Part shown: piece by piece, positions 842 to 64,000 of the stretch
How the letters are laid out: the number at the start of each line of letters is the position of its first letter
Position numbering within the stretch: the first letter of the stretch is position 1
Assembly (NCBI GenBank): GCA_001769385.1
Contig: MEPB01000019.1
Span: 186,001 to 250,000 of the forward strand
Length of the DNA: 64,000 bases
Direction: 5' to 3'
Source: Bacteroidetes bacterium RIFCSPLOWO2_12_FULL_35_15
GTDB taxonomy: Bacteria; Bacteroidota; Bacteroidia; 2-12-FULL-35-15
Made by a program: the position numbers and the translations under genes
The notes under the pieces: generated by a model
Told to the model about the DNA's origin: nothing
Database searches by the model: none
What the model saw: only the letters and a program-made list of their open reading frames with translations

Positions 842-1258
842 ATGAAATATTTTACCCTATTCATAATTATAGTTTTCTTTCTTTTCTCCTGTAAAAAAGA
901 GAAGCCATATAATCCAGATGATCACATCACCTACACACATTGGCAAACAACAAGGAGCGATTCCACTGATAGCATGAGCTATTCAATCGCTATCCCTAAT
1001 GCATTTTCTCCAAATGGTGATGGAATAAATGATTGCTTTATTATGAAGGGAACAGCGATTATCAATAGTTTTAGTATGAAAATTTATAGCCGTAATGGTA
1101 ATTTAGTTTATTCGGGGGATGATTTTTACAAAGGATGGGATGGCAAAATCAATGCAGGTTCTACTGCACCGATTGGTGTATATATTTTCGAAACGGAATT
1201 GGCTGAAGCAAGCGGAAGATCTAACAAATACCAAGGCTCGGTCACTCTTTTCAGATGA
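842..1258 (+). CDS. Small lipoprotein made almost only of a T9SS type B (CHU_C) sorting domain
   Basis: 138 residues. A hydrophobic signal peptide ends in FLFSC, with Cys17 as the likely lipidated residue, and a polar linker of about 30 residues follows. From about residue 50 to the end is a gliding-motility-type C-terminal domain: IPNAFSPNGDGINDCF near its start, an IYSRNGNLVYSG segment in the middle, WDGK, then GVYIFETEL. That is the family pattern of the T9SS type B (CHU_C) signal. There is no recognisable cargo domain. The neighbour, convergent and one base away, encodes a PorP/SprF-family protein; proteins of that family are known to be needed for export of type B cargo. It may be a surface lipoprotein or an adaptor that works with that partner. 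The domain assignment is firm; the role is inferred. Confidence 0.85.
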   Translation: MKYFTLFIIIVFFLFSCKKEKPYNPDDHITYTHWQTTRSDSTDSMSYSIAIPNAFSPNGDGINDCFIMKGTAIINSFSMKIYSRNGNLVYSGDDFYKGWDGKINAGSTAPIGVYIFETELAEASGRSNKYQGSVTLFR

Positions 1259-1259
1259 A

Positions 1260-2204
1260 CTAAATCATTCTTATGGTTTTGAAATCACCTGTTTTTTTGT
1301 GACTCTTAAGAAACCAGATCATATGTCCTTCGTGGCATCCACGGGTTACGTTCTTTAAGGATGATACCGTATTGTCATATGAATAGGCAAGTTTAAACAA
1401 TCTGAATTGGACTCCGGCATTTATAATAAAAGCATCTTGATTTCTGTAGCTTACTCCTATAACAATCCATTTAAGTTTTATATTTATTCCTGCTAAAAGT
1501 TCTTGAAAATCTTGTTGATGAAGGTAAAGGAGATTTGGAGAAAAAATAAATTTGTTTTTTATATCTTTTTTGAAGCTTAAGTTTGCTCCCACATGTAGCG
1601 TTGTTTTAATTGGCAATTTAGAGGGTCCAGCAAAGCCCTCATCTGGTTGATTAATATGATGAATTGCAATTCCGCCATAATATTTTGAACTATAAATAAA
1701 TACTCCTGCAGATAAATCCAGATTAGATTTTTTTGTTGTACCGGGAACTTCTTGTGTGTCATACACAAAACCTCTTCTTGCGTCAATCTCATCCCCAAAA
1801 ACAAGTTTTTCCCAATTAATTTCTTTCTGGAAATAAGCGATACCAATTGCGGGTTGTACTGCCAGTTTGTGTTTAAATAATTCAATATGAGGTGCATAAT
1901 TTAATTCAAATCTTGTTGTTGTTATTGTGCCATTTCCTTCGTTATCATGTAAAAAATTAAGACCTAAACCCCCTCTTAAAAATCTAAAATAATTGTCAGC
2001 AGAAAAATGAAAAGTAGAATAAGTGCCTGCCGCATTTGGCCATTGTAATCGATAACCAGCGGATAAAACCAGGGAACTGTCAGTTCCAACCATAGCGGGA
2101 TTTAAATACGATCTTGTATTTTGATACTGTGAGAAATGCGGATCTTGCGCAAAGGAAAAAATGCTAGTATAAAGTAAAATAAAAAATAAACCGCTCCGTT
2201 TCAT
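1260..2204 (-). CDS. PorP/SprF family T9SS outer-membrane protein
   Basis: 314 residues with a signal peptide cut near FSFAQDPHFSQY. The next residues, HFSQYQNTRSYLNPAMVGT, are the N-terminal signature of the PorP/SprF family. Alternating beta strands (LSAGYRLQWP, HFSADNYF, GGLGLNFLHD) predict an outer-membrane barrel, and GCHEGH near the end matches the family's conserved G-x-H-E segment. SprF-like members help export or anchor type B T9SS cargo, and the adjacent convergent gene encodes a type B sorting domain, so the two probably work together. Many such paralogues exist per genome, so I do not give a gene symbol. The start is an ATG just before a good signal peptide. Confidence 0.92.
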   Translation of the reverse strand: MKRSGLFFILLYTSIFSFAQDPHFSQYQNTRSYLNPAMVGTDSSLVLSAGYRLQWPNAAGTYSTFHFSADNYFRFLRGGLGLNFLHDNEGNGTITTTRFELNYAPHIELFKHKLAVQPAIGIAYFQKEINWEKLVFGDEIDARRGFVYDTQEVPGTTKKSNLDLSAGVFIYSSKYYGGIAIHHINQPDEGFAGPSKLPIKTTLHVGANLSFKKDIKNKFIFSPNLLYLHQQDFQELLAGINIKLKWIVIGVSYRNQDAFIINAGVQFRLFKLAYSYDNTVSSLKNVTRGCHEGHMIWFLKSHKKTGDFKTIRMI

Positions 2205-2258: not shown

Positions 2259-2287
2259 TGTATCTTTTTTACATTTACTGCATTATA
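2259..2287 (+). promoter_or_regulatory. Candidate promoter motif shared by both ECF sigma genes
   Basis: This 29-base segment starts with TGTATCTTTT and ends with TTAC...GCATTATA, 20 bases before the sigma factor start. Closely similar segments lie upstream of the second sigma gene (62656-62683) and of the TonB-like gene before it (62191-62218). The similarity is seen directly. A role in sigma-factor autoregulation is inference, and part of the match could simply reflect the general promoter, since TACATTTA resembles the TAnnTTTG box. Confidence 0.45.
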
Positions 2288-2307
2288 AAACTAAATAGCT
2301 AAAAACG

Positions 2308-2877
2308 GTGAACGCACATCATAAAACCGATACCGATATTCAACTGGAGTTGCAGCAAATAGAAGCTGCAAAATTAAATCCTGCGCGGTTTGATGTATTG
2401 TATGAAAAATACTATAAACCCATTTTTGTATTTGTTTACCGAAGAACAGAAAATGAAGATCTATGTGCAGATATTACTTCTATGGTGTTTTTAAAAGCAT
2501 TGGTCAATATTAAAAAATATCAGTTTAAAGGTGTTCCGTTTTCAGCCTGGTTATTCCGCATTGCCTTTAATGAAATTAATATGTATTTTCGAAAAAATAA
2601 AGCGGAGCGAATTGTAAGACTGGATAGGACTAATTTGCATCAGATTGTTCAGGAGGTGGAGTTAGAGAGTAACTCAGAAGCAGAACAAAAAATGATGTTG
2701 GCCTTAAAAAAATTAGATAACGATGATATTCAGTTAATAGAATTCCGTTTTTTTGAAAAACGTTCTTTCGCAGAAATTGGCGGGATAATTGGTATCACAG
2801 AAAATAATGCAAAAGTAAAAGTGTATCGCATCTTAGATAAATTGAGAACGTTAATGAATAGTAAAAATAGTGGATGA
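2308..2877 (+). CDS. ECF-type RNA polymerase sigma factor
   Basis: 189 residues starting at GTG. Region 2 spans about residues 27-95 (FDVLYEKYYKPIFVFVYRR, then GVPFSAWLFRIAFNEINMYF). Region 4 spans about residues 130-183 (DDIQLIEFRFFEKRSFAEIG, ITENNAKVKVYRILDKLR). This is the ECF layout. It directs RNA polymerase to a dedicated set of promoters, and the regulon is unknown. The next gene encodes a small membrane protein that is probably its regulator. The sigma factor at 62707-63273 is a clear paralogue with the same phrases (GVPF-S-WL-RIA, FFEKRSF, ITENNAKVK) and the same kind of downstream partner. No typical zinc-binding anti-sigma protein lies nearby. Confidence 0.93.
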   Translation: MNAHHKTDTDIQLELQQIEAAKLNPARFDVLYEKYYKPIFVFVYRRTENEDLCADITSMVFLKALVNIKKYQFKGVPFSAWLFRIAFNEINMYFRKNKAERIVRLDRTNLHQIVQEVELESNSEAEQKMMLALKKLDNDDIQLIEFRFFEKRSFAEIGGIIGITENNAKVKVYRILDKLRTLMNSKNSG

Positions 2878-2954
2878 GTAAATTTAGTAACATGAGTTAA
2901 TTCAGGCAAAGCCCAATCAACTTATGAAACTAATATCTGATTAACCAAATAAGA

Positions 2955-3209
2955 ATGGCCGATTTAAAATTCAATATCGATAAACCCGATTTGCCTGATG
3001 AGCAGATCAACAAACACAAAGATTTTAAAAAGTTGATGTATAATTATCAGACAGCAACAAACCCTTTGTACAAAACGCCTTTATATAAAAACAGAAAAGT
3101 ATATTTAGTTATACTTATTATTTTATTAGTAATGTATGTGATCATTGAAGTTTTTGAAAAAGATGAACAGCAACAGAAAAAACCAAGCCCACAGGAACAA
3201 ACCAAATAA
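2955..3209 (+). CDS. Small single-pass membrane protein, putative anti-sigma partner
   Basis: 84 residues: a charged N-terminal tail of about 48 residues, one membrane segment (VYLVILIILLVMYVIIEVF), and a short Lys/Gln/Glu-rich tail. The N-terminal NIDKPDLPDEQINKHKDF matches NINRPEISSEEIAQRKNF at the start of the protein encoded at 63354, which also follows an ECF sigma gene. In both, PL-K-P precedes the membrane segment. The parallel suggests a cytoplasmic sigma-binding tail held at the membrane. It lacks the HxxxCxxC zinc motif and any FecR-like periplasmic domain. The gene lies 77 bases after the sigma gene and 11 bases before the OmpA gene. The homology is what I see; the anti-sigma role is inference. 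Confidence 0.75.
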   Translation: MADLKFNIDKPDLPDEQINKHKDFKKLMYNYQTATNPLYKTPLYKNRKVYLVILIILLVMYVIIEVFEKDEQQQKKPSPQEQTK

Positions 3210-3220
3210 ACTCTTTTGCC

Positions 3221-3904
3221 ATGAAAAATTTACTGTTATTTATATTTATTATTATTTCAATTTCCAGCTATTCGCAAACGCTTGAACCTACAGAAACACA
3301 TGCTTTGTTGACTGTTTTGGTGGCGAATGGCAAATCTAAACCATTGGAAGGCGAAAAGGTAAGCTTCCTTGCGACAAAAGATAAAAAAGTATATTCGGGA
3401 GTTACAAAAGCAGATGGGAAATTTGAACTTTTAGTCCCGAAAGGCGACAAATACAAGGTGCAATACAAAGCTGCCGGAGGAAATGAAGATTATAGTACAC
3501 TGGATATGCCGGCTGTGGAGGGCTTAATAACTTTTGAATATAAATTAACCATTGTTCCACCCAAAATTTACACCTTGGATAATGTATTTTTTGATACCGG
3601 AAAGGCAACATTAAAACCTGAATCATCAAAAGAACTAAATGAATTAGCTGAATACATGCAACTGAAAAAATCAATGGTTGTCGAGATTGCCGGACATACC
3701 GATAATGTTGGAAATAAAGAAGCAAATCAAAAATTATCGGAAGGCAGAGCAAATTCGGTTAGAAATTATCTTATAAAAAAAGGAATTGCTGCTGAACGTA
3801 TTGTGGCAAAGGGGTATGGCGACACACAGCCTGTTGCCGATAATTCCACAGATGCAGGGAAACAAAAAAATCGAAGGACGGAAGTAAGGACGATAAAGGA
3901 TTAA
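3221..3904 (+). CDS. OmpA-family protein with N-terminal Ig-like domain
   Basis: 227 residues. A signal peptide (cut near SSYSQTLEP) is followed by a beta-rich segment at about residues 25-110 with GEKVSFLATKDKKVY and VTKADGKFELLVPKG, which looks like a carboxypeptidase-regulatory/Ig-like fold. The C-terminal OmpA domain (about 115-227) has VFFDTGKATLKPES, EIAGHTDNVGN, LSEGRANSVRNYL and KNRRTEVR, the peptidoglycan-binding pattern. It should sit in the periplasm and tie an outer-membrane or periplasmic partner to peptidoglycan. It lies 11 bases after the small membrane protein gene, so it is likely cotranscribed with the sigma module and may be an output or sensor of it. That link is inference. 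Confidence 0.9.
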   Translation: MKNLLLFIFIIISISSYSQTLEPTETHALLTVLVANGKSKPLEGEKVSFLATKDKKVYSGVTKADGKFELLVPKGDKYKVQYKAAGGNEDYSTLDMPAVEGLITFEYKLTIVPPKIYTLDNVFFDTGKATLKPESSKELNELAEYMQLKKSMVVEIAGHTDNVGNKEANQKLSEGRANSVRNYLIKKGIAAERIVAKGYGDTQPVADNSTDAGKQKNRRTEVRTIKD

Positions 3905-49101: not shown

Positions 49102-50661
49102 ATGAAAAAAATATTTTTTCTGTTTTTTGCAATTGCAATTTCTTGCATAACAAAAACTACGCTTGCTCAGAATTATAATGTAATTGAAGGGACTGAATTC
49201 GACCCCCCATCAGATTCAAAATGGGGTTCTTATGCCGGTGAAAACACAAATTATTTTTATACATTACGAATAAAAACCAAAGGGAGAGGTACAAAATATT
49301 TTATAGAGGGAATGAATAAAGCCTCTCTTAAAAAATCTTTTGAAACCGAACTTCCATTAGAAGAAGAAGCTCATGTTGGCCTTGATCCGGTTTCTTTGGA
49401 TATGAAGATTTTATGTTCAGAAGGACGGATTTATGTTTGTTTTAAAGGATTTAATAAAGATGAAAAAACAAATAAATATTTTATAAAAGTTGTTTTTGCG
49501 GATGGAAAATTAGGCGATTTGCTTGAAATTGAAAGCACTACCGAAAAGTTTGACATCAATCTGTATATCAATAATGACAAATCAAAAATATTAATGATTA
49601 ACGATAAGGCCTGGAATAATGGCCATCAAAATGTAGCGGCTACTCTTTTTAATGCTGATAATTTTTCAAAGATCTGGAAAAAACAAATGCCTGATGAATA
49701 CAAAGGAGCAAGCATAGAAACCTATTATTATAAATTAAATAATGCGGGCGATTTTTGTTTTTTATTCAATTATTTAATTTCAAAAGATCCTCAGGTGATT
49801 GGAAAAGGTATGGGGATAGTTAATAATGGAACCGAAAAAGCAAAATTTGTAGTGTTTCCCAATAAAGACAATCATGAAATTGAAAATGGCAGAATTGAAT
49901 TTACAGAAGCAGGAAAATTCATTTTTACAGGTTTATTTAAAGAAAATGTTTCCCTAAAGGAAGGAGAAGCAAATGGATTATCAAAAAAAGAAAAGGTAAA
50001 ATTGGAGCAAGAGCGTGAATCAAAAAAAAGAGTTGGAATTTATTCTTACTATGTTGATGTTGCAACAAGCAATTTGGTTACCAATTTTGAATTTTTTCCT
50101 GAAGATGTAGCACAAAAACTAAGTTACTCCCAAGGGTTGGTTTTGGCAGGAGCAGCAAATAAATATTATACTGCTTCAGGATTAGAAAATCTGAATGGTG
50201 ATTTTTATCTGTTTGAAAATCATAAATATACCATTTCTGGAAATGGGGTAGCAACGTTTGAAAGAGAGTTTATTATAACAAAAATCAATAGTAAAGGTGC
50301 AATTTCCTGGACTAAAATATTTCCAAAGAATACAGTTAATTCACTTAATACGTTTAATATTTTAAAACACGAAGGAAGGATTTATGTCTTTTATTTAGAG
50401 CATCCTAAAAATCTGGAAAAGTCAACCCTTAATGATTACGAGCCAACAAAATATGCTGACATTAAAACCTACAATGGTTCTGTGGTGGTTGGTTTAGAAA
50501 TTTCTTCTGATGGTTCAGCAGTTCGAAAACAAATATTCGAAAACAGTGGCTGGTGCTATGATCCGCAACCAAATAATATTTTATTGGAAAAAGATAATAA
50601 AATACTTATTCGGATGATCAATAGAGGCAAAGAGCGATTTGATGTAATTAAGGTAGATTGA
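49102..50661 (+). CDS. Secreted protein of unknown function
   Basis: 519 residues. A signal peptide is cut near KTTLAQNYN. The body is a series of beta-strand blocks resembling a propeller (ILCSEGRIYVCFKGF, ILMINDKAWNNGHQNVAATL, FEREFIITKINSKGAISWTK, FNILKHEGRIYVFYLEH). A coiled stretch, KKEKVKLEQERESKKRV, occurs near residue 300. There is no T9SS sorting domain and no lipobox, so it is probably periplasmic or secreted another way. I do not recognise a family. It is transcribed alone and ends in a terminator. Confidence 0.75.
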   Translation: MKKIFFLFFAIAISCITKTTLAQNYNVIEGTEFDPPSDSKWGSYAGENTNYFYTLRIKTKGRGTKYFIEGMNKASLKKSFETELPLEEEAHVGLDPVSLDMKILCSEGRIYVCFKGFNKDEKTNKYFIKVVFADGKLGDLLEIESTTEKFDINLYINNDKSKILMINDKAWNNGHQNVAATLFNADNFSKIWKKQMPDEYKGASIETYYYKLNNAGDFCFLFNYLISKDPQVIGKGMGIVNNGTEKAKFVVFPNKDNHEIENGRIEFTEAGKFIFTGLFKENVSLKEGEANGLSKKEKVKLEQERESKKRVGIYSYYVDVATSNLVTNFEFFPEDVAQKLSYSQGLVLAGAANKYYTASGLENLNGDFYLFENHKYTISGNGVATFEREFIITKINSKGAISWTKIFPKNTVNSLNTFNILKHEGRIYVFYLEHPKNLEKSTLNDYEPTKYADIKTYNGSVVVGLEISSDGSAVRKQIFENSGWCYDPQPNNILLEKDNKILIRMINRGKERFDVIKVD

Positions 50662-50690
50662 TTTTTTTATAAAATAAATTCATCATTTTG

Positions 50691-50737
50691 AAAAACCAAT
50701 TGTACATAGTCTCTGGCTATATACAATTGGTTTTTTT
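50691..50737 (+). terminator. Rho-independent terminator
   Basis: AAAACCAATTGTACATAG and CTATATACAATTGGTTTT pair with one mismatch around TCTCTGG, followed by a T-run. It is about 30 bases after the stop of the unknown secreted protein. Confidence 0.9.
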
Positions 50738-50824
50738 ATTTTAACGATTAAGCTATTTGTTATGCCGTTCAATCAACCTCCTTTTTTAAGAAGGGTTTAT
50801 CTTAAAGTCGAAATAATTTCGCTC

Positions 50825-52066
50825 CTAACTTTTCTCTTCCCAGATCATACATAAATTCACAATCGTTTCTACTACTTTCTCCATATCCTGAATAGATACC
50901 CATTCATGTTTAGAGTGGAAAGCATGTTCCCCGGCAAAAATATTCGGACAAGGTAAACCCATATATGAAAAACGTGAACCATCTGTTCCTCCTCTGATGC
51001 TTGACAATACAGGCTCAACACCTGTTCGTTTTATTGCTTCCAAAGCATTGTTTACAATGGCAGGATTTTTATCCAACACTTGTTTCATATTACGATATTG
51101 TTCTTTCACAATAAAATCGAAAGATGAATTAGGATAATTTTTGATAATTTTTTCTGTTAAGTTTTTCAAAAAATCTTCCTGTGTTTTTAACGTTTCTTCA
51201 TCAAATGCACGAATGATAAATTGAAGAACACTTTCTTCAATTCCTCCAGAAATACTTACAGGATGTACAAATGGTTCTTTCTTCTCGGTTGCTTCAGGAC
51301 ACATTTTATCTTTTGGCAAAGCAGCAACCAAATCACAAGCAATTTTAATTGCACTTTCCATTTTATTTTTTGCAAATCCGGGATGTGTACTTACACCATG
51401 GAATTTAATTGTAACTCCATCAGCTGAAAAGGTTTCATTCTCAATATGTCCAAGCTCTTCACCATCAATCGTGTAACCATAATCAGCACCTAGTTTTTTC
51501 AGGTCAGCTTTATCTGCCCCACGGCCGATCTCTTCATCAGGAGTAAATAAAATTTTAATTGTTCCATGTTTTATTTCAGAATGATTAATTAAATGAAGTG
51601 CAGCATCCATGATTTCTGCAATGCCGGCTTTGTTATCGGCACCAAGCAAAGTAGTTCCGTCAGTCGTAATTATATCATTGCCTATCTGTTTTAGTAAGGA
51701 AGGATGATCCTTTGTTTTTATAATTTGTGTTTTATCGTTGATCAATACAATATCTTTTCCATCATAATTTTTTACAAGTTGAGGATTAACATCTTTCCCC
51801 GAACAATCCGGTGAGGTATCCATATGTGCGCAGAAACAAATTACAGGTACTTTTTTTGAAGTGTTGCTCGGGATGGTTGCATACACATATCCAAACTCAT
51901 CCATGTTTGCATCCGTAATTCCAATTTCAATAAGTTCTTTTACCAATACTTTTCCAAGGTCCTTTTGTTTTTCGGTTGATGGACAAGTTTCTGAATTAGG
52001 ATCACTTTGGGTATCAATTTTTACATACTTTAAAAATCGTTCTGTAACTGTGTGGTTTATTTTCAT
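50825..52066 (-). CDS. pepT: Peptidase T (tripeptide aminopeptidase)
   Basis: 413 residues, the usual length. Zinc-binding and catalytic motifs of the M20B family are FCAHMDTSPD (His and catalytic Asp), GTTLLGADNKAG (bridging Asp), FTPDEEIGRGAD (Glu-Glu), DGEELGHIENE, and a final His in EHAFHSKHEW. SSIRGGTDGSRFSYMGLPCP also fits the family. It removes the N-terminal residue from tripeptides in the cytoplasm. It is monocistronic here. Confidence 0.96.
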   Translation of the reverse strand: MKINHTVTERFLKYVKIDTQSDPNSETCPSTEKQKDLGKVLVKELIEIGITDANMDEFGYVYATIPSNTSKKVPVICFCAHMDTSPDCSGKDVNPQLVKNYDGKDIVLINDKTQIIKTKDHPSLLKQIGNDIITTDGTTLLGADNKAGIAEIMDAALHLINHSEIKHGTIKILFTPDEEIGRGADKADLKKLGADYGYTIDGEELGHIENETFSADGVTIKFHGVSTHPGFAKNKMESAIKIACDLVAALPKDKMCPEATEKKEPFVHPVSISGGIEESVLQFIIRAFDEETLKTQEDFLKNLTEKIIKNYPNSSFDFIVKEQYRNMKQVLDKNPAIVNNALEAIKRTGVEPVLSSIRGGTDGSRFSYMGLPCPNIFAGEHAFHSKHEWVSIQDMEKVVETIVNLCMIWEEKS

Positions 52067-62190: not shown

Positions 62191-62218
62191 TGTATCTTTT
62201 GTTTACTTTTACGTTATA
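62191..62218 (+). promoter_or_regulatory. Shared promoter-like motif before the TonB-like gene
   Basis: TGTATCTTTT, 8 bases, TTACGTTATA. The same two 10-mers with the same spacing recur at 62656-62683. It ends 8 bases before the ATG of the TonB-like gene. TACTTTTA inside it also resembles a -7 box. Confidence 0.5.
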
Positions 62219-62226
62219 GATGTAAA

Positions 62227-62652
62227 ATGAAAGAGGTGAAAATTATAATTTTTCTGTTTTTGGCGATTTCTGTTTCTTGTTTGGGGCAAAAAAATTCGAA
62301 TAGAGGAACGATAAAAGTTGTTAAGGATACTGCAATATATACTAAAGTGGATGTAATGCCTGAATTTTCGGGTGGAAATGCTGCAATGTATAATTTTATA
62401 CAGTTAAATTTACGTTATCCCCAAAATGCAAAGGAACGCGGTTCAAGTGGTACATGCTTTATTACCTTTGCAGTAAATATAGATGGCTCCTTGTCGAATA
62501 TTATTATTTTGAAAGGCGCTAGTGGATGTCCAGAGTGTGATTTAGCGGCATTGCGTGTAATTAATATGATGCCTAAATGGACGCCAGGTAAAAATAAAGG
62601 AGAAACGGTTCGGGTTCAATATAATATACCTATTAAATTTACTTTACGATAA
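62227..62652 (+). CDS. Secreted TonB C-terminal-domain protein
   Basis: 141 residues from the ATG at 62227; a 21-codon upstream extension overlaps the promoter motif. MKEVKIIIFLFLAISVSCLG may be a signal peptide or a lipoprotein signal (VSC). The TonB domain has EFSGGNAAMYNFIQLNLRYP, SSGTCFITFAVNIDGSLSNI, and MPKWTPGKNKGETVRVQYN. A CPEC pair (in GASGCPECDLAAL) is unusual for TonB and might bind metal or form a disulfide. No proline-rich linker. It sits directly before the second sigma gene and shares an upstream motif with it. Confidence 0.88.
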   Translation: MKEVKIIIFLFLAISVSCLGQKNSNRGTIKVVKDTAIYTKVDVMPEFSGGNAAMYNFIQLNLRYPQNAKERGSSGTCFITFAVNIDGSLSNIIILKGASGCPECDLAALRVINMMPKWTPGKNKGETVRVQYNIPIKFTLR

Positions 62653-62655
62653 TTT

Positions 62656-62683
62656 TGTATCTTTTTAAAATACTTACGTTATA
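62656..62683 (+). promoter_or_regulatory. Shared promoter-like motif before the second sigma gene
   Basis: TGTATCTTTT, 8 bases, TTACGTTATA, 23 bases before the sigma ATG. Identical end 10-mers and spacing to 62191-62218; similar to 2259-2287. Confidence 0.5.
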
Positions 62684-62706: not shown

Positions 62707-63273
62707 ATGCTGCAAACATCAAAATATCATGCAACTAAAACCGATCTGGCCAATGAACTTGTTCAGGTGGAAGATGCAAAAAAAAATCCTGCAAAGTTTG
62801 CTGTGTTATATGATAAATATTATGAGCAGATATTCCGTTTTATTTATCAGCGTTTAGATGATAAAGAACAAGCATTTGATGCCACACAACAGGTTTTTGT
62901 AAAAGCATTGGAAAATTTGCATAAATATGAATTTCGCGGAGTGCCTTTTGCATCATGGCTTTACCGGATTGCATCAAGTGAAGTGAATAATTTATTCCGT
63001 TCACAAAAGGCACAACGTACTGTAAATATTGATTCGGTTAGCATTTACGGAATAATAGAAGAAATTCAGGAAAGTAAAATTGAAGAGTATCACGATAAAA
63101 TAGTTGCCATTATTGCCGAGAACTTAGAAGAAGACGAATTGCAATTGATCGAGATGCGCTTTTTCGAAAAACGATCTTTTAAAGAAATGGGAGAAATACT
63201 GGAGATCACCGAAAATAATGCAAAAGTAAAAACATATCGGATCTTAGATAAATTGAAAAAAATAATTAAATAG
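62707..63273 (+). CDS. ECF-type RNA polymerase sigma factor, paralogue
   Basis: 188 residues from ATG. Region 2 covers about residues 31-97 (FAVLYDKYYEQIFRFIYQRL, FRGVPFASWLYRIASSEVNN) and region 4 about 134-187 (EEDELQLIEMRFFEKRSFKE, ITENNAKVKTYRILDKLKKI). It is a clear paralogue of the sigma factor at 2308: the conserved blocks agree nearly residue for residue, and the linker between them diverges. It follows the TonB-like gene by 54 bases and precedes a membrane protein with the same N-terminal tail as the partner of the first sigma factor. Confidence 0.94.
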   Translation: MLQTSKYHATKTDLANELVQVEDAKKNPAKFAVLYDKYYEQIFRFIYQRLDDKEQAFDATQQVFVKALENLHKYEFRGVPFASWLYRIASSEVNNLFRSQKAQRTVNIDSVSIYGIIEEIQESKIEEYHDKIVAIIAENLEEDELQLIEMRFFEKRSFKEMGEILEITENNAKVKTYRILDKLKKIIK

Positions 63274-63353: not shown

Positions 63354-64000
63354 ATGAAAAGAAAAGTAAATATAAACCGCCCTGAGATTAGCTCTGAAGA
63401 AATTGCACAGCGAAAAAATTTCGATTCGGTTTTGAAAAATCATGCAAACATCAGTGGGAAACCTTTGTTTAAAAAGCCTTGGTTTTTATCCAGCGTGATT
63501 GTTGCAACAGTAGCTATTGTTACCTCAGTTGTATTGTTGAACCAGGATACAAAACACGAGGTGCCAGATCCAATCGCAACCAACCTACAGCAAGAGATTA
63601 ACAGCGAGTTGGAATTCTATAGAAAAGAAGAAGCAAAGCCCTGTATCAGTCCTCCTTTAAAAGATGTGAATGTGCCTTATACAACTTTTAAAGTTATAGC
63701 CGAAAAAGGTGCGAATCTTGATTTTAAAACCGGTTCGAAATTAGTTGTTCCGAAAAATTCTTTTGTTGACGAAAACGGCAAGCTGGTCAAAGGTGAAATA
63801 GAATTGCGTTACCGTGAGTTTCATGATCCTATTGATTTTTTCGTTTCAGGTATTCCAATGACATACGATAGTGCAGGAGTAACCTATCAATTTGAATCTG
63901 CAGGTATGATGGAAATGCTGGCTTACCAGGATGGAAAACCTCTGAATATGGCTCCTGAAAAAGCAATTAATGTGGAGTTAGCATCCAACTATAAAGGAAC
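63354..64000 (+). CDS. Membrane protein following the second sigma factor, 3' end beyond window
   Basis: The frame starts at an ATG at 63354 and is open to the window end (215 codons). The cytoplasmic tail has NINRPEISSEEIAQRKNF, then PLFKKPWF, a membrane segment (SSVIVATVAIVTSVVLLN), and an extracytoplasmic part from about residue 70. That part has VPKNSFVDENGKLVKGEIEL, RYREFHDPIDFFVSGIPM and FESAGMMEMLAYQDGKPL, a beta-rich domain repeated in Bacteroidota proteins that I cannot name. The tail matches the small protein at 2955. A sensor or anti-sigma role for the neighbouring sigma factor is plausible. It begins 80 bases after the sigma stop; AACTTTGCGCCTTTGCGG, a repeat remnant, lies between. 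Confidence 0.8.
   Translation, partial: MKRKVNINRPEISSEEIAQRKNFDSVLKNHANISGKPLFKKPWFLSSVIVATVAIVTSVVLLNQDTKHEVPDPIATNLQQEINSELEFYRKEEAKPCISPPLKDVNVPYTTFKVIAEKGANLDFKTGSKLVVPKNSFVDENGKLVKGEIELRYREFHDPIDFFVSGIPMTYDSAGVTYQFESAGMMEMLAYQDGKPLNMAPEKAINVELASNYKG

Follow-up and report, generated by a model that had tools for sequence, protein, structure and literature searches.

Two ECF sigma factor genes with membrane partners

We analyzed a 64-kb stretch of DNA, referred to here as the window, which lies on contig C19 of a 5.4-Mb genome. The gene at 2308..2877 (+) starts with GTG and encodes an ECF sigma factor of 189 aa (sigma A), and the gene at 62707..63273 (+) encodes a second one of 188 aa (sigma B). 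Both have the ECF layout, with Pfam Sigma70 regions 2 and 4 (above the cut-offs in sigma A) in a protein of about 190 aa. They share 51% identity across 182 aa; the seven further ECFs found by genome search are only 20 to 26% identical to sigma A. Downstream of sigma A lies the gene for an 84-aa predicted membrane anti-sigma factor, partner A (2955..3209, +; tail profile E 4.6e-18), which comprises a tail (residues 1 to 48), a helix (about residues 49 to 67), and 17 aa outside the membrane. The conserved tail (2955..3098, +) is predicted to be cytoplasmic and to bind the sigma factor, based on tail alignments, a fusion model of the orthologue at locus L094, and covariation. Partner B, whose open reading frame begins with the ATG at 63354 and exceeds the window end (63354..64000, +), has the same tail and one helix followed by about 508 aa outside; its full length, read at L010:9355-11067, is 570 aa. 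The partners align over 57 aa of their N-terminal stretches, with 26% identity and an E value of 2e-8.

An initial annotation of this DNA had described the sigma gene at 2308 and the 84-residue protein at 2955 as having counterparts at 62707 and 63354, and these open reading frames are confirmed. The shared motifs that it quoted, and the PL-K-P stretch just before the helix, match letter for letter in both partners, and its contrast between one partner with almost nothing outside the membrane and another with a large domain holds at 17 aa versus about 508 aa. It had also reported that neither partner has the zinc anti-sigma motif or a FecR-like layout. This agrees with our scans, in which no class I anti-sigma domain model (ASDI, ZAS, RseA) matched partner A or B and no Pfam FecR domain was found in either. 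A SpoIIQ match of partner B, which scored far below the cut-off, and a sub-threshold Spore_YhaL match in the helix of partner A were dropped.

The neighborhood of the sigma A pair contains several envelope genes. A gene for an envelope protein of the OmpA family that includes a CarboxypepD_reg-like part (3221..3904, +; Pfam OmpA E 1e-27) begins 11 nt after partner A, and an OmpA gene is likewise the next gene in L014, L015, L016, L020, L028, and L094. This neighbor is kept in several sigma A loci, and others have GldM or CHU_C neighbors instead. By analogy with CnrX, which serves as a separate sensor for CnrY, the OmpA-family protein may be a candidate sensor or effector. On the other side of sigma A, a divergent gene encodes a PorP/SprF type IX secretion membrane protein (1260..2204, -; Pfam PorP_SprF E 3e-48), also found near the sigma A orthologues in L011, L012, L013, and L017, and a Pfam-recognized CHU_C protein (842..1258, +) carries the type IX secretion signal and is a further neighbor linked to the type IX secretion system (T9SS). 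No TonB-dependent receptor was seen among the open reading frames adjoining either sigma/partner pair.

A tail family downstream of one sigma clade

We built a tail profile of 46 positions from 20 sequences of relatives and ran it over 59 whole genomes. It gave 80 matches, of which 79 immediately follow a sigma gene belonging to the same clade, on the same strand and starting no more than 450 nt after it. The initial annotation had proposed this search with the proviso that its reading would fall if the tail were found mostly away from sigma genes, which did not occur. The 80th match (G011:C2), AEQAAQHKNFDDI, lies midway inside an unrelated protein and was set aside as chance. Counted in reverse over the same 59 genomes, 79 of 82 sigma matches have a tail match. 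Among the remaining three, one lies at a contig end; one, L040, contains undetermined bases and still has a family-like partner; and one, L088 (G049:C3), is an out-of-clade sigma factor with 30% identity, followed by a longer, classic-looking anti-sigma-like protein that does not have the tail. In this last case, the N-terminal domain of the partner is itself longer and of classic appearance, a hint that such a domain may have given way to the short tail.

As an independent set, we took 80 loci picked from GTDB genomes by sigma factor alone, including loci from Saprospiraceae, Flavobacteriales, Crocinitomicaceae, Cytophagales, and others. The tail lies within 500 nt downstream of the sigma gene in 78 of the 80, so the likeness between partners A and B is not chance, and no tail occurs elsewhere in any of these loci. 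The sigma search returned hundreds of relatives. In an even phylum-wide draw, the tail was found in 3 of 158 genomes, which indicates that the family is widespread but patchy rather than universal in Bacteroidota.

Conservation among 143 non-redundant sigma-tail pairs is concentrated in the soluble tail. Its core reads ..[ND]RP.[LI]S.EEI..[HR]K[DN]F..[LVI].., and the best-conserved positions, all within it, are I (129 pairs), [DN] (142), F (138), and [LVI] (136); the helix is variable. The helix starts at residue 38 to 56 in most members, which leaves some 50 aa or fewer in the cytoplasm. Lysine and arginine average 3.7 per 15 residues before the helix versus 1.9 after it, an excess that places the tail in the cytoplasm (N-in). 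Across the family, the length outside the membrane lies anywhere between 0 aa, as in the shortest members at 57 to 60 aa (e.g., L119 and L164), and about 640 aa. On the sigma tree, the size class of the outer part changes about 13 times (the minimum is three) with tail and helix retained, which bears out the earlier suggestion that conservation resides in the cytoplasmic tail.

Database searches with the two parts returned little. The tail matched nothing in Pfam, NCBIfam, or the PDB, with a PDB profile search giving chance matches only. For the large outer domain, Pfam yielded no noteworthy family and the PDB neither a sequence match nor a convincing fold, and NCBIfam gave one weak match among 37 members. 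The short partners of Flavobacteriales, at 57 to 100 aa (L119, L120, L132, L136, L160, L162, and L164 to L166), share one common neighborhood: directly downstream of the pair is a gene for a secreted protein of ~310 aa, probably an outer-membrane barrel, usually followed by a conserved gene for ~345 aa.

Predicted promoters and regulons

Both sigma genes follow an exact match to the general promoter form GTATCTTT-N-C[A/G]TTAT, conserved in their orthologues. The predicted sigma A autoregulatory promoter is GTATCTTT-N13-CATTAT at 2260..2286 (+), and its sigma B counterpart lies at 62657..62682 (+). GTATC-N16-CATTAT precedes 17 of 18 sigma A orthologues and GTATC-N16-GTTAT precedes 28 of 28 sigma B orthologues; shuffles gave no more than 3 and 5, respectively. 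Given this conservation, both sigma genes are probably autoregulated. When the pattern is relaxed, the promoter is present in 91 of the 163 regions upstream of family members, a set with some redundancy, compared to 0 to 5 in shuffles.

The B form has six exact sites in the analyzed genome, all 9 to 39 nt before gene starts, and they precede envelope or lipoprotein genes or sigma B itself. One of them, GTATCTTT-N12-CGTTAT at 62192..62217 (+), ends just before the ATG of a predicted sigma B target in the window, the gene for a TonB_C-domain protein (62224..62652, +; Pfam TonB_C E 1e-16). Two related lipoproteins (..RN[LI]DYLE[YF]LHW..), at G000:C76:54630 and C61:6537 (L215 and L221), are both under sigma B-type promoters. 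In addition, a gene at about 49277-51000 of G000:C80 (L224 and L289) encodes an outer domain of the partner B type without a recognizable sigma-binding tail and sits 54 nt downstream of a sigma B promoter with one mismatch; its product is perhaps a decoy or a target.

The A form, allowing up to one mismatch, precedes sigma A, a GldM gene (TIGR03517, 340 bits; site 56 nt before the gene), and a gene for a GldL_N-domain protein in the same genome. A control pattern gave about as many one-mismatch matches there, so the case for a sigma A regulon rests on relatives. In 46 relatives, there are 34 exact A forms versus 6 for the control, and they precede sigma A, a second GldM (GldM-2, in eight genomes), and GldL_N-like proteins. 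Within one mismatch, the A form lies 32 to 56 nt before GldM-2 in 13 of 15 cases, the GldM-2 genes of G016 and G024 being without the motif; 13 other GldM genes checked for the A form had none. Among 28 genomes of the same genus, all 14 that have sigma A also encode a second GldM and none of the 14 without sigma A does, and GldM adjoins short-partner sigma genes in other genera too. Judged from these sequence patterns, sigma A appears to govern spare components for the type IX secretion motor, among them the second GldM/PorM. The analyzed genome has two GldM genes, L286:8007-9602 and L288 (G000:C69 and C19:159757), and among the listed open reading frames no other recognized gld gene lies directly beside the one on C69.

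Predicted complex and mode of action

The initial annotation had asked for a predicted structure of the sigma-tail complex. In some loci, the sigma and partner genes share one reading frame, and for L094 we modeled a read-through fusion in which the sigma stop is read as glycine and is followed by nine linker residues and the tail as one chain. AlphaFold, given a 36-row alignment with 16 fused rows and this short read-through linker, returned a model with pLDDT 89.5 and pTM 0.86. In this model, the tail is ordered on the sigma factor as two short helices and a strand, its blocks scoring 84, 95, 98, and 83 (range 83 to 98). The tail blocks of a B-type partner modeled alone (L152), a control that differs in both homologue and alignment, scored 53, 69, 59, and 51. 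The fusion model contains exactly two strands, sigma residues 101 to 105 and tail residues 4 to 8, which must therefore pair with each other. Its nearest PDB structures are anti-sigma-bound sigma factors. The compact SigW/RsiW and CnrH/CnrY structures fit best (TM 0.67 to 0.69 by target length, 0.69 for the CnrH chain), and RNA polymerase-bound sigma factors fit poorly (0.35 to 0.41, rmsd about 25), with the caveat that AlphaFold may be biased toward compact sigma factors.

To assess covariation, we ran a mean-field coupling analysis over the 143 sigma-tail pairs, equivalent to about 102 effective pairs. Sigma I68 couples with tail F6 at 2.34 and sigma K37 with tail D15 at 1.97, compared to a maximum of 1.61 in 22 within-clade shuffles. 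The K37-D15 pair shows charge compensation, with K or R occurring with D or E, and E with S or A. The R107-D9 and R104-K10 couplings border the predicted strand pair, the E50-Q17, N67-K22, and E33-K22 couplings fall on sigma regions 2.1 to 2.2, and sigma and tail distances correlate at 0.78. Predicted contacts in the fusion model and covariation over about 102 effective pairs agree in placing the putative tail contact on the surface by which the sigma factor binds RNA polymerase. The anti-sigma role that had been proposed for the partners gains support from the fusion model, the residue covariation, and the predicted autoregulatory promoter, and we infer that it is inhibitory: the inner tail of ~40 residues very probably holds the sigma factor inactive.

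The tail could instead be a positive cofactor or membrane tether that recruits the sigma factor or is needed for its activity, with no inhibition. Some FecR-like proteins are needed for the activity of their sigma factors, the position and conservation of the tail would suit any obligate partner, and the shortest members keep no sensing part outside the membrane. We nevertheless regard this explanation as improbable, because both the modeled contacts and the covarying residues map to the linker and to regions 2.1 to 2.2 of sigma2, which matches known anti-sigma complexes, and the nearest structural matches are inhibited sigma factors. In addition, autoregulated sigma operons usually encode an inhibitor.

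Among known systems, the closest in build is CnrY of Cupriavidus metallidurans (PDB 4CXF), together with NepR. CnrY is a class II anti-sigma factor, a class reviewed in PMC4598750 and PMC7406223; it has 94 aa and a short cytoplasmic part, its sensing part is in the separate CnrX, and it holds its sigma factor compact. In its short cytoplasmic part, no longer than about 50 aa in most members, the tail family resembles class II. However, hhalign found no sequence similarity between the tail and CnrY (probability 0.1%), and the tail-family partner is encoded downstream of its sigma factor and in many members has a large outer domain. Class II factors wrap a closed sigma factor with two helices; for the tail, the fusion model predicts a strand in addition to two short helices, on a compact sigma factor most like CnrH and SigW. 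Class I anti-sigma factors (RseA, RsiW, ChrR; zinc or non-zinc) are likewise membrane proteins encoded beside a sigma factor and contact sigma2 regions 2.1 to 2.2, but their domain is a four-helix unit of about 100 residues or has an HX3CX2C motif, whereas the tail has about 40 to 48 aa and does not contain the motif. A class I partner accompanies only 6% of the ECFs in Bacteroidetes (PMC7406223). The Dma anti-sigma factors of Bacteroides (ECF21) are also from Bacteroidota and also combine an N-terminal sigma-binding part, one helix, and an outer domain, which in Dma is a disordered tether with a C-terminal, outer-membrane beta-barrel (PMC13088901). Partner A, with only 17 aa outside, has no such barrel, and the model of the B-type partner of L152 is globular with a long helix and a secondary structure that is not barrel-like. 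FecR, paired with FecI in cell-surface signaling, is another one-helix anti-sigma factor of an ECF. Because kinship with CnrY was not detected, the strand addition would be different if the model is right, and the features of class I, FecR, and Dma do not apply, the sequence and model evidence suggests that the tail partners work like anti-sigma factors and form a new family of them. We found no earlier description of it in the literature searched, which consisted mainly of openly accessible papers.

ECF control of the T9SS is already known from SigP of Porphyromonas gingivalis, an autoregulated ECF that drives por genes, T9SS motor genes among them, and is bound by PorX (PMC7712824). Sigma A might accordingly be a SigP-like factor mainly under PorX/PorY, with the membrane protein secondary; its predicted targets are T9SS-linked, and the analyzed genome encodes a protein with a PglZ domain, as found in PorX. 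This explanation seems very unlikely, as the tail partner is retained in every sigma A orthologue examined. Compared by description, sigma A also differs from SigP in having a membrane partner and in its predicted target, a second, accessory GldM, and no description of a membrane-held sigma factor for an accessory GldM was found in the searchable literature. That the partners are unrelated envelope proteins merely cotranscribed with the sigma factor, sharing the tail only as a membrane-targeting stretch, would suit outer parts that differ widely in size and a large one without a known family, but is least credible of all, given that conservation peaks in the soluble tail and not the helix (F in 138 of 143, I in 129 of 143) and that the tail is restricted to sigma neighbors and covaries with the sigma factor.

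We therefore return to the anti-sigma reading. Pairing, tail conservation, promoter motifs, and target positions enter it as computed, and in vivo binding, inhibition, signal, and release as what we infer. It is likely that both pairs belong to a Bacteroidota family of ECF sigma factors and membrane anti-sigma factors that works as follows, including release and regulons. The anti-sigma domain would be the N-terminal cytoplasmic tail of ~40 residues, anchored N-in by one helix and disordered when alone. On the sigma factor, tail residues 4 to 8 would add a beta strand to the strand of the sigma2-sigma4 linker (about residues 101 to 105), and tail helices 15 to 19 and 24 to 35 would lie on the sigma2 surface that binds RNA polymerase, keeping the sigma factor compact, inactive, and at the membrane. 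In the B type, the partner's own outer domain would read an envelope signal; in the A type, this would fall to a separate protein of the envelope, perhaps the OmpA protein encoded next to the partner. Once released by the signal, the sigma factor would transcribe the operon that encodes it, together with a small regulon, from promoters of the general form. For sigma A, this regulon is predicted to supply an accessory motor for type IX secretion, with the second GldM and a GldL-like protein, and for sigma B a set of envelope proteins and lipoproteins. The joint reading of the family in which one branch governs the accessory motor is one that we favor by a modest degree.

About 6% of Bacteroidetes ECFs have a recognizable class I neighbor, and the study that gave this figure left room for other modes of regulation (PMC7406223). 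The tail family would be a concrete answer for one widespread sigma clade, with a tail too short for profile libraries to catch. The promoter motif makes each sigma/partner pair a predicted regulon, coupled residues, for example sigma K37 with tail D15, offer direct handles for mutation, and the tails could be used as small orthogonal anti-sigma factors. The link between sigma A and the second GldM points to a switch under membrane control for accessory type IX motors, which would add another route to that of PorXY-SigP.
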